This document shows positions 5,514 to 64,000 of a stretch of DNA of 64,000 bases, piece after piece (positions within the stretch are counted from its first letter, which is position 1; each line of letters opens with the position of its first letter). The stretch comes from Tomocerus qinae (taxonomy: Eukaryota; Arthropoda; Collembola; Entomobryomorpha; Tomoceridae). The notes below the pieces were generated by a model. It was given only the letters and a program-made list of their open reading frames with translations. It did no database searches and was not told where the DNA came from. The DNA lies in assembly GCA_020055645.1 (NCBI GenBank), contig CM034546.1, positions 50,034,001 through 50,098,000 on the forward strand, given 5' to 3'. A program made the translations under genes and the position numbers.

Positions 5514-8500
5514 TTATTCATCTATCTTGGCGAGGCTTGAGAAGTAGGCCGTCACATCTTCAGGTTTTGGTCGGTCGTTTGGATTCTCACTCCAACATTC
5601 AAGCATAAACCCATATCTGAAAGAATGAAAAAATACATTTATAAGAAAAACGATAAAAATATTTACAACAATAAATGGAAATGGTAATCCAAATTCGGTT
5701 TTCCATTTATTTAGTAATTTAGTTGTATGGATTAATTTATAGCATGCGACAGTATTAGTACTGATCATAGGCAATCTACTATTAATAAGGCTCCAAAAAT
5801 AACATTTTGGGGATTCATTGGATTTCAGTTGTATTAAATCTTGTTTCGCTACTCCTTTTAATCCATTTAAATTACTTTTTGATCTACTTACATTTCATTT
5901 GTGGCATGTTTGGGTTTTTGTACCCTCATGTTTCTGCCTAGCTCATCAACAAAGTCCACCGTCCAAGATAAGCCTGGGTAGGGAGTTTCCCCGAGTGAAA
6001 AGATTTCCCATGCAGTTATTCCAAATGACCAAATATCAGATTGAACAGAGAACGTCATATGCCTAAGTGACTCAAGTGCCATCCAACGCCAAGGAAGGGG
6101 TTCCTTTTTGTCATAAAATTTGTTATTTTCCATTGAAGCAAGTACGTTTAAAATGAACAAAATTAAAATCTTACTTGATTTTTCTTGACATATTCGTTAT
6201 AATCGTAGAGTTTTCTTGAAAGTCCAAAATCGTTCAATTTAACGACATCCTTTTCAAATAGCAAGACATTCCTTGCTGCCAAATCCCCATGAACTAACTG
6301 AAAAGCAAAGAAAAAACTTAACGGTATGAAAATAAACCACAAAACTAAAAATCATGTGAAAACCTTCTTTGAACTCAAATACTGCAATCCGTTTGCTATT
6401 TGATGTGTCCAGTTGACCAAATTCCAGAAAGTTAATTTATTTTCTGATTCCTTTTCCTTCTCGGTCTCTTTTGATTCGGTATCTTGGCTCTCGCTAAACA
6501 ATTCAACAAATTTTGTTCAAAATTATCTACCCAAAAAAATAACGAAAATTAAGGATACTTTCGTTGAAAATAGAATTGAATATAAACCGTCTTTAAAAGT
6601 TACTATTTAAACACATATTTATTTATTAAACACATTTATTGATAACACATTTAAACGAACAACAAATAGACCAATTGTCCGGTTCTTATTAATGAAAATT
6701 TGATTTATTTGATAGCTACTAACAGGTACTTACTTTGTCTCCAATTGGGAATACATATTTTCGTTCTTTTTGGATTCCTTAATAATTAAGCATGAATTTC
6801 TTAAATAATTCTGTAAGTTTCCTAAAGGGCATAGCTCGACGAAAAGATACACAATTCCTATTCAGTAAATATAGTAAACAGAGTAAAAACCATTTTACTA
6901 TGTTCATTTCAAATAGAAAATAATATTGGCAATGCAAAACTGGAAACCTTTTTTCAAGTCTACAGTACTTGCTCCAATTAAATTCATTATATTTGGATGG
7001 TGACCCAAATGAATGAGTATTTTGATTTCTGAGAGAAGAGACATTAAGTATTGCTTGTCTGCACCTGGCTTTGTGCACTTGACAGCGGCAGGCGTATCCT
7101 TGACAAGTCCGCTGTAGACAATTCCGTATGCACCACTCCCTAATATGTTTTTCTTGTCTACCAAACCGAAATTTAATCATTGTGATTAAACTTTAATAAC
7201 TAATCCAATAGAGGTTAATAGCTTTAAATATACCCTCACCAATTTGGTAGTTGTTGTTTATTTCATAAGAGGCATCATAAGGACGGCTGGTGGGGTCATC
7301 ATAATCATTTGCTTCCGCAGTCCCTTTTTTGAAATATAGTATTTCTTTTCGTGTAAGGCCTTTCTGTTTTAAACAATTAAAATCCAATCAATATAATAAC
7401 TAGTAGGAGGAAATAGTTTTCAAATAAATTCAATTACACATTTTTAAACAAATCACATCGAGGCAGCCTTAAATAGTTATAAATATCGTATGTCTTTTAA
7501 AGCAATAAATTACGTCCTTACAATTTTTCTCCCTCGGATAATTAAATATACAACTGCTATTACAAGTGATAGGATTAACACAATCACTGCCCCTAGAATA
7601 AGAAATGGCAATATGTCCCTAAAGTTTATACTCCTTGCGGATCTTCTTAAACCAGCTCTTGCAGCTCTTAGCAATGGGTATTTAACTCCTCCGCATTTTC
7701 CTTCATGGTCATCAAAGTTAATAGAATTCACTGCAATTCCTCCAAGAATAGCATCGGAGACAATATTTGCTTTACTAGAGACACTTTTAGGATTCTCAAA
7801 ACTTATCCATAAGTTTCCATTTTTGGAAAATGGTACATTTGCAATATAATCCCAGTACAAATTCCAATGTTGATCTCTCAACAGTGAGTGGCAAATCTAA
7901 AATAAGTTTTATATTATGTTACATCACTTCTTAATATCATGCAATGCAATAGACAACGCATGAATTAATGCGTTCTTGATAATATTTTAAATTATGACAT
8001 TTTTCATCCAAAATTTTAAATCGTAATCAAGAATAAATGTTAATTAGCAAGATATACTAACTTCATTATATCCCCAAATTTCAGAACCGTTTAGAAGTGG
8101 TCCTTCGACTTCTATAGCATCATTGGTACGTCCATGCAATCCGTATAAGGTAGCATTTTGATTGTTAAGTGTGTATCGTCTTCCGAAGAAAGGAATGACT
8201 AGGATAAGACTGTGGTAGTGTTTCAATCTATTTAGGTAGCTGTACAATTTTTCCTGCTTGCTATTCAAAGATTTGATTGGTGCGTTATGATTGGTAATTC
8301 CATGGTCTGCTTGATAAAAGTTGTATGCAGTGAGGAAAATGAAATCATAAAGTTGATATTGTTTAAAATACGAGTTGCTCCACTCGTGATTTCTGTACTC
8401 ATTGTCCAGTTGCTTGTAAAAAATATGGTCGACTTGTATTAACAAAAGTAGTCCCTTAAATTCTAGTTTTAATTCCTACAAAATTTGACAATTAATGTTA

Positions 8501-62900: not shown

Positions 62901-64000
62901 CAATGGAATCAGCCATAATTCCCCTTAGACCATATTTATTTGCTAATTTTGCCTTTTCATAAACACTTTTTGGACTTTCAAAGCTAGTCCATTCCGAACC
63001 GCGTTGCATAAAAGAACTTTTGGCTCTATTATCCCAAAATGTATCCCAGTTTAGTTCTTGGCAAATCTATACACATAAAAATTCAAAAAACTTTTTTTTG
63101 AGTCAATTTTTGGTGAATATATAATAGCAGTCTCCTGTCTATTTCCACCATCTTTAGGTCTATCCTTCAATACTCTTTACATCCGCCAGTTTGTGGTTTT
63201 CCATACGTTTAACTACAGAAAGTATTTACTTCCGTCCTTCACCTTAACTTAATTTTTTTTAACTTACAAAGTGATACATCCTTCAAAATCAAAGTAAAAT
63301 GCGTGTCGCTTTAAATCAGGGAAAGAGACTTCATTTTTAAAAAAATCTCCTTTTCTATAGTTAAACAAACTCTTATATTATGTCTTCAGGTTGACATATA
63401 GAATTTTAAAGTCAGAAAAAATGTCTTTTTTCTATTGTTTAAGCCACTTTTTCCAACCATAAAACCAGACACATCCCGTTCCACATTGAAACAAACTTTA
63501 ACTGATTAACAGTGATTTGATTATTATTGAGAAATCGAGAAGTTAAATTTTCCTGGTGTTCATTTGAATATCAGAAGGGTGGTCTTTTGAAGTGAAAGAA
63601 GAAACTAGTGGACGGAAAATGCATAAAACATAGATAATATATAGGATTGTACCTCATTATATGCCCAAAGACTTTTATCACCAAAGATAGGATTTCCTTT
63701 GTTATCAACTAAGCGATGCAATCCAAATAGATCAGAGTCTTGGCGTATAAGATAATTTGAATTTGAAAGATTATGTGCTTGGCCAAAAAAGGAAATAGAC
63801 AAAACCAATGTTGTCGGATCTGCTCCCATGTTGAATAGCAAGTACTTCAAACTGTCGTTTATATTTTCATCATCTTTTTGCAATGAGAATAGAGGAGCAA
63901 TATGTCCGGTAATTTTGTCACTGGTACGAGAAAAATAAAATCCTTTCAAGAAAACTAAATTCATAGTTCGGCTAAACTGAACAACATAGGGGAAGCTATA
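56982..64000 (-). CDS. Gene 5 (partial, 5' end beyond window): GH18-Ig-GH18 receptor tyrosine kinase
   Basis: Sixteen exons seen: 63653-64000 (cut by the edge), 62656-63066, 62356-62572, 62020-62103, 61733-61927, 61494-61665, 61317-61398, 60770-61195, 60060-60452, 59727-59862, 59220-59429, 58533-58653, 58305-58416, 58102-58224, 57801-58012, 56982-57093. They match exons 6-21 of gene 2 in order and phase. The visible part covers the second half of GH18-A ([15 protein letters not shown]), the Ig domain ([15 protein letters not shown]), GH18-B, a transmembrane helix ([20 protein letters not shown]) and the kinase ([22 protein letters not shown]). The GH18-B motif is HGLYLDSD, with Asp where Glu is needed. 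This is the most divergent copy. Signal peptide and early exons should lie to the right of the window. Confidence 0.83.
57365..57712 (-). mobile_element. tRNA-derived SINE, copy 2
   Basis: On the minus strand the head carries an A-box-like GTCTAGTGGTATA (57698-57710) and a B-box-like GAGTTTGAATC (57660-57670). The body matches copy 1 at 295-1530. It contains a hairpin with arms GCAGACAGAAAATCCC (about 57465-57520). It lies in intron 20 of gene 5. Confidence 0.65.
58654..59219. other. Intron 16 of gene 5 with degenerate short repeat
   Basis: Between about 58930 and 59030 a loose repeat of roughly 14-18 bases (TTAGCCAAAATTAG, TTTAGCCCAACTTGG and similar) is seen. Nothing else recognisable. Confidence 0.3.

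Follow-up and report, generated by a model that had tools for sequence, protein, structure and literature searches.

As a rule, animal receptor tyrosine kinases (RTKs) are regarded as receptors for protein ligands, which they bind by way of immunoglobulin (Ig), FN3, EGF-like and similar modules. We report here on a tandem array of RTK genes of the springtail Tomocerus qinae in which an Ig domain is set between two chitinase-like GH18 domains. The array lies in a stretch of 64,000 nucleotides, called the window throughout (C1:50034001-50098000, C1 being contig CM034546.1 of a genome assembly of 334 Mb in 115 contigs). The nearest described receptors by sequence are those of the VEGFR/PDGFR class (class III/V), with which the window genes share the best single-copy matches among Protein Data Bank (PDB) sequences, a kinase insert, a juxtamembrane stretch, an Ig domain and a single transmembrane helix. 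They differ from this class, whose members carry three to seven Ig domains, by the GH18-Ig-GH18 ectodomain, by the motif HGD in place of HRD and by a family size of at least 182 kinase places in this genome.

The GH18 domain is shared with the insect chitinase OfChtIV, with chitotriosidase and with CHI3L1/YKL-40, none of which is a receptor, whereas here it forms the ectodomain of a kinase and, in the window copies, lacks both the catalytic Glu and the subsite Trp. The imaginal disc growth factors (IDGF) also combine a non-catalytic GH18 fold with a signalling role and gave a weak PDB match (1jnd), but they are secreted and are not receptors, whereas the window genes encode a transmembrane helix and a kinase. 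The plant CHRK1 and LysM receptor kinases, set beside the springtail genes by description only, embody the same concept, a membrane kinase whose ectodomain has to do with chitin; because the plant kinases are of the Ser/Thr type and those described here are metazoan-class tyrosine kinases, the two would be convergent.

No description of a GH18 domain on an RTK was found among the papers listed in searches of the open-access literature, although automated database entries could exist, and the available passages of PMC8662651, PMC4177888, PMC10432511, PMC12693562 and PMC5644144 place no chitinase domain on a kinase. An RTK with this ectodomain is so far undescribed in the literature searched, in agreement with an earlier note on this DNA, which knew of no animal receptor of this architecture. 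In another springtail, Holacanthella duospinosa, four unassigned GH18 expansions are reported, and its Cht3a, 14, 16b, 19a, 19b, 20 and 21 lack the catalytic Glu (PMC5644144, in its available passages); the word 'kinase' is absent from the text of that article in a term search. That some of these genes encode receptor ectodomains is a guess. More generally, caution is called for, as arthropod 'chitinase-like genes' may be receptor ectodomains severed from their kinases by annotation.

Receptor genes of the window

The minus strand of the window carries three complete receptor genes (g1, g2 and g3) and a fourth (g4) truncated at the right window edge. Each complete gene encodes, in this order, a signal peptide, a first GH18 domain (GH18-A), an Ig domain, a second GH18 domain (GH18-B), a transmembrane helix and a tyrosine kinase, along one conserved chain of exon phases. 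The presence of GH18-Ig-GH18-transmembrane-tyrosine kinase genes, as read in the earlier note, is confirmed: the one-gene architecture holds in the splice models of g1-g3 and of the visible part of g4. The tandem array described there also stands, but its count of four full genes and one partial gene does not, the actual number being three full genes and one partial.

To build the models, the minus-strand open frames were compared all-against-all, which yielded a repeated exon set, and 20 exon peptides were then placed by tblastn. Exon edges were set with a splice-site dynamic programme under frame constraints, with AG acceptors and GT donors (GC allowed but penalised), sites being picked separately for each gene; edges with weak splice-site scores are uncertain. 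The four models contain no internal stop and every chosen donor is GT. The start phases (0,1,1,2,0,0,0 / 1,1,1,2,0,0 / 0,1,1,2,0,0,2) agree exon by exon across the genes, g4 being compared from exon e06. In g3, exons 16 and 17 are fused into one open exon, leaving one kinase intron fewer. Signal peptides in g1-g3 were called solely from the hydrophobic stretch after the ATG, which is weak in g2, and in all four models a single hydrophobic segment above threshold lies between GH18-B and the juxtamembrane/kinase part.

Pfam was run on the translations of g1, g2 and g3 and of two compact relatives described below (L033 and L034). Of these, g1, g2 and g3 each gave GH18 twice, Ig and tyrosine kinase above the cut-offs; for g2 the values were 5e-76 for the kinase (PF07714), 6.4e-54 for two stretches of PF00704 and 1.5e-9 for I-set, and g1 and g3 likewise showed two stretches of PF00704 together with the Ig and kinase domains. 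In g1-g3 the ectodomain thus contains one Ig domain between two GH18 domains and no multi-Ig array. The late-domain GH18 signatures ([16 protein letters not shown] or near variants in GH18-A, [12 protein letters not shown] in GH18-B) were recovered in all four genes, and so were HGDLAARN and DFG in each of the four kinases.

The exon structure bears directly on whether the GH18 and kinase exons belong to one gene. The Ig domain is split between exon 6, which holds the end of GH18-A and the first Ig half, and exon 7, which holds the second half. Half an Ig domain makes no sensible protein end, and the split therefore supports a single gene. The introns between the transmembrane and juxtamembrane exons are 158, 1171, 113 and 197 bp long with matching phases, and those that follow measure 82, 79, 126 and 297 bp. 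Because the Ig domain is spread over two exons, and because the passages from GH18-A to Ig and from GH18-B to the transmembrane helix each fall within one exon, separate transcripts for the GH18 and kinase exons appear very unlikely. The features of the window are as follows.

5514..15899, minus strand: g1, complete receptor gene of 20 exons and 1288 amino acids (tblastn, splice model, Pfam)
15833..15899, minus strand: g1 exon 1, with the ATG and the signal peptide; a stop codon in the same frame lies 12 nt before the ATG
12463..14913, minus strand: g1 exons 2-6, GH18-A, exon 6 also being the first Ig half (splice model, Pfam)
12105..12306, minus strand: g1 exon 7, second Ig half (splice model, Pfam)
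7522..11833, minus strand: g1 exons 8-13, linker and GH18-B (splice model, Pfam)
7522-7896, minus strand: g1 exon 13, C-terminus of GH18-B and transmembrane helix (splice model, hydrophobicity)
5514..7363, minus strand: g1 exons 14-20, insert-bearing tyrosine kinase with the juxtamembrane segment before it (splice model, Pfam)
19927..34189, minus strand: g2, complete receptor gene, architecture as g1, 20 exons, 1273 amino acids (splice model, Pfam)
42102..50277, minus strand: g3, complete receptor gene, architecture as g1, 19 exons, 1277 amino acids (splice model, Pfam)
56982..64000, minus strand: g4, architecture as g1, 5' part beyond the window; model 63997-56982 with 16 visible exons and 1113 amino acids
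37841..38602, minus strand: orphan GH18-A exons e02-e04 between g2 and g3 (tblastn)
2102..2200, minus strand: signal-peptide exon of the next array gene, whose remainder lies left of the window (tblastn)

Outside the window, exons e02-e04 of g4 were found in the adjacent region C1:50098001-50103000 (L037). This region also holds additional GH18 exons upstream of e02, which may be another fragment or a third GH18 domain of g4. Two further observations were made inside the window. A GC-richer patch within the largest intron of g2 contains long overlapping open frames on both strands (26543-27350 and 28336-28827), and a short tandem peptide-like repeat, QFYNQP, lies between g3 and g4 (55926-56087).

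Catalytic state and origin of the GH18 domains

Three points go beyond the earlier note, namely the loss of catalytic residues, the likely nature of GH18-B as an internal duplicate and a far larger family that includes GH17-like ectodomains. The functional roles of the catalytic Glu and of the subsite Trp are established for GH18 proteins. In an ungapped alignment of motif II (DxxDxDxE), the catalytic Glu is absent from all eight GH18 domains of g1-g4 ([74 protein letters not shown]). Likewise, none of the eight copies keeps the Trp of the subsite (in MLWSIETDDF), which is replaced by Gln or Asp in GH18-A and by Asn in GH18-B. The window domains thus lack the catalytic Glu of an active chitinase, and the fold itself (PF00704) was recognised in g1-g3, L033 and L034.

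L033 (C1:65525500-65532499) and L034 (C1:134196000-134202499) each have 14 exons spread over about 5 kb and encode 949 and 970 amino acids, respectively; the ATG that opens their first exon was picked by us. Their architecture is GH18-Ig-transmembrane-tyrosine kinase, with one GH18 domain. Pfam gave 1.7e-66 and 1.3e-70 for GH18, respectively, and a kinase above the cut-off in both; the Ig domain is weaker, with Ig_3 at 24.4 and 26.1 bits (cut-off 30) and I-set at 22.8 bits, below the cut-off of 23.7, in L033 and at 24.5 bits, above it, in L034. Motif II reads DGLNLDWE in L033, where the Glu is kept and one Asp is changed to Asn, and HGLNLDWQ in L034, where the Glu has become Gln; both genes retain the subsite Trp. 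In searches of PDB sequences the best matches of the GH18 domains were OfChtIV, chitotriosidase and CHI3L1/YKL-40, and the L033 domain matched OfChtIV with E=5.5e-78 over 353 residues, far closer than IDGF-2 (2.9e-28). The series of active-site states, from the nearly intact L033 with its Glu through L034 with Gln to the window genes with neither, allows the change from enzyme to sensor to be tested.

The compact genes also bear on the origin of GH18-B. Removing the GH18-B block from the window chain leaves exactly their phases (0,1,1,2,0,0,0 / 0,1,1,2,0,0,2), and the five exons of GH18-B run through the same phases (1,1,2,0,0) as the five of GH18-A; because of these two correspondences, GH18-B looks like a duplicate of an exon block within the gene. 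We then compared the domains in a GH18 tree of 18 rows, several of them short, rooted on OfChtIV. All receptor GH18 domains fell into a single clade (support 100), and the four chitinase loci from this genome that were included (L001, L002, L005 and L006; support 100) stood apart from it. L033 and L034 fell outside the split between A and B, L026 joined the window A copies (97) and the window B copies formed a group (100), the position of the A domain of L027 being weak (59). L026 apparently has one GH18 domain directly before the transmembrane helix and L027 has two. A single capture of a GH18 domain, followed later by internal duplication, is supported by trees and intron phases.

The place of insertion may be read from the intron that follows the Ig Trp codon. 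In three relatives with Ig-type ectodomains (L016, L020 and L023) a donor, identified by its motif alone, lies 15 nt past this codon in phase 0, and the models of L033 and L034 have an intron at the same place and in the same phase; in the window genes the corresponding intron lies 6 nt past the codon, also in phase 0. Because this donor is common to the Ig-type loci and the compact genes, the comparison suggests that the GH18 domain was inserted ahead of an old membrane-proximal Ig domain.

Kinase class and the wider receptor family

The four window kinases all retain the G-loop, the Lys, the Glu, the Asp of HxD, DFG and a juxtamembrane RPYDASYEI, which aligns with PYDSRWEF of PDGFRA. Among the best 60 of 1171 PDB matches, the g2 kinase scored 231 bits against VEGFR1, 226 against PDGFRA and 220 against VEGFR2, with FLT3, KIT, CSF1R, TIE2 and FGFR2 below; the top row, at 281 bits, is a tandem EGFR chain in which two copies of about 138 bits each are summed. 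By the sequence of the g2 kinase, the window genes would therefore encode type-I RTKs nearest to the VEGFR/PDGFR class.

Genome-wide, 150 of 574 kinase candidates were scored, with 182 matches; each place is an exon match and not a proven gene, and the counts are lower bounds, as are those for GH18, for which 125 of 201 candidates were scored. It should be noted that 143 of the 150 listed kinase places lie on the 140 Mb contig C1, a very large kinase-family expansion on that contig. Twenty regions of ten kb around kinase places, a selection that leans to the upper end of the list and is therefore not random, were classified by upstream-exon homology: 11 had Ig-type ectodomains, five were GH17-like, two were GH18 (L026 and L027) and two received no assignment (L024 and L028). 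A kinase tree was built from 27 family rows and three outgroups (VEGFR1, PDGFRA and EGFR, the last chosen as root) and serves to show grouping within the family. The family was recovered with a support of 99, the GH18 receptors (including L028, whose ectodomain was not found) with 97, the GH17-like receptors with 56 (96 without L025) and the Ig receptors, including the unclassified L024, with 79.

The GH17-like loci are L009 (two genes), L010, L013, L014 and L025 (for example C1:35086000-35095999). One exon of L013 reached 31.1 bits against Pfam GH17, above the cut-off of 28.2, while L009 (23.5 bits) and one piece of L025 (19.8 bits) stayed below it and the pieces of L010 and the other pieces of L025 and L013 gave no GH17 match. 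A genome-wide search returned 11 places with E<=0.001, seven of them above the cut-off (one only with its neighbours), and some of the places lie inside receptor loci. Read by eye, L013 and L009 retain the nucleophile Glu of the GH17-like domain and L025 has Gln at this site, and the usual GH17 acid/base Glu seems to be absent from these ectodomains. A GH17-like exon matched a beta-1,3-glucanosyltransferase with E 0.018 in the PDB search; the two top rows of that search (E 0.0048 for the whole, 0.48 for the best stretch) were unrelated proteins, which we took as chance matches and left aside. The presence of GH17 on a receptor kinase of an animal is no less surprising than that of GH18. Stronger GH17 matches than those of the receptors were found away from the listed kinase places, at C1:45225502, 74980441, 115472051 and 132143936, and are possibly stand-alone genes. 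A search with one exon query found no relatives on viral contigs.

Selection, possible functions and further genome observations

Ratios of nonsynonymous to synonymous substitution rates (dN/dS) were calculated by the Nei-Gojobori method for the pairs of g1-g4, and the values are rough, many dS being near or above 1. In the six pairs dN/dS ranged from 0.10 to 0.19 for the kinase, from 0.22 to 0.45 for Ig, from 0.26 to 0.55 for GH18-B and from 0.26 to 0.78 for the transmembrane and juxtamembrane part; for GH18-A it was 0.16-0.28 in three pairs, dS being out of range in the other three. The kinase value was below that of GH18-B in six of six pairs. On these estimates GH18-B and Ig evolve faster than the kinase, GH18-A does not clearly do so, and all parts appear to be constrained.

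Taken together, these data lead us to lean, without strong confidence, towards receptors with chitinase-derived recognition domains, in which the GH18 barrels would be ligand-binding pseudoenzymes coupled to a VEGFR/PDGFR-like kinase and would serve in the sensing of chitin or fungal walls. An insect-type GH18 chitinase domain would have come to lie in front of the membrane-proximal Ig domain of an RTK; the window genes would later have gained a second copy of its exon block between Ig and membrane, with catalysis lost in both copies. A chitin-related glycan, or a protein that binds such folds, may engage the GH18 barrel, a step for which the case is strongest in L033 and L034. Engagement would pair two receptors, so that their intracellular kinases could phosphorylate each other. 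Because GH17-like domains, related to beta-1,3-glucanases, occur in relatives and the kinase changes more slowly than most of the ectodomain, the family may sense diverse polysaccharide-associated cues, most plausibly fungal-wall material from food or infection. If fungal walls are indeed sensed, glycan recognition would be routed straight into tyrosine-kinase signalling. A broader proposal, which we put forward tentatively, is that the family is the animal counterpart of the plant chitin and glucan receptor kinases: GH18 and GH17 folds would have been taken up as sensors, the groove being kept at first and catalysis then disabled, and scores of receptors arisen by tandem duplication would detect polysaccharides of the fungal wall, or proteins attached to these, and signal directly by tyrosine phosphorylation.

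Several points weigh against chitin or fungal-wall sensing by receptors of this class. The architecture is a reading of genome sequence from which the putative functions are derived, and tandem expansion by itself demonstrates no immune role. As they lack the subsite Trp and the motif-II acids, the window GH18 domains may no longer bind chitin. The HRD motif has its Arg changed to Gly in all four window kinases, and the kinase tree does not speak to class. As to selection, GH18-A is not above the kinase in two pairs (0.16 and 0.18 against 0.19 and 0.18), and the outer-part ratios below 1, for which several dS are near saturation, could reflect relaxed constraint.

Alternatively, the GH18 domains may see no glycans at all and act as a protein-binding scaffold, like IDGF or YKL-40, for polypeptide ligands in, for example, development, reproduction or self-recognition. 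The window genes are the furthest from the enzyme, which makes a protein ligand a serious rival for them: Glu and Trp are gone from all eight of their GH18 domains, and the kinase is nearest to a class whose known ligands are proteins. Against it, the Trp is retained in both compact receptors and the Glu in L033, so that the clade probably began with a glycan-binding fold, and a second polysaccharide-hydrolase fold, GH17, occurs within the same family; for the receptors as a whole we consider this explanation rather unlikely. A glycan could also be the animal's own, the receptors monitoring chitin of the cuticle or the peritrophic matrix at moulting and not that of fungi. Arthropods make and remodel chitin and the nearest match of the captured domain is an insect chitinase, but for moulting a small set of conserved genes would presumably suffice, whereas GH18 precedes the kinase at no fewer than 25 of the 150 places, and cuticle offers no beta-1,3-glucan to the GH17-like relatives. 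We hold monitoring of own chitin to be improbable.

The remaining explanations concern the array itself. It could be decaying, without any selected function, as the orphan three-exon fragment between g2 and g3 might indicate, together with the GH18-B ratio of 0.55 in g1-g2, for which dS is lowest in most domains; yet all models are open and the kinase is constrained in six of six pairs, and a pseudogene array, which seems highly improbable to us, was rejected on the open frames and dN/dS. Computed splicing could also have joined adjacent but separate chitinase-like and kinase genes. A GH18 match lies upstream of the kinase on the same strand, within 20 kb and with no listed kinase between, at at least 25 of the 150 places, four of which are g1-g4; a same-strand match also lies downstream at 13 of the 150, as expected of tandem arrays, and this is what such a joining would draw upon, but only one place has GH18 on the opposite strand. 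The order and phases are moreover identical across g1-g4, L033 and L034, and single exons bridge GH18 and Ig, Ig and the transmembrane helix (in L033 and L034) and GH18-B and the transmembrane helix. With the split Ig domain, the exons shared between domains, the phase chain and the copy number all opposed to it, this artefact was rejected and has, in our judgement, next to no credibility.

Some minor observations were made elsewhere in the genome. Four contig ends, each scanned over 400 bases, showed none of five telomere motifs (three units in a row). A single match to 7tm_6 was found in the genome (31.7 bits, cut-off 25.8), unlike the situation in winged insects. For H. duospinosa, no odorant receptors are reported in the available passages of PMC5644144. 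The gene order of a mitochondrial-type stretch of the assembly is I-Q-M-nd2-W-C-Y-cox1-L-cox2-K-D, with nd2 and cox2 identified by eye and two tRNA calls inside nd2 set aside; this is the order ancestral to pancrustaceans and supports a host from that group. Finally, C1 includes a mitochondrial piece (L035, C1:36670928-36672268 and flanks) in which COX1 has a full-length frame and which may be a recent nuclear copy or an assembly join.

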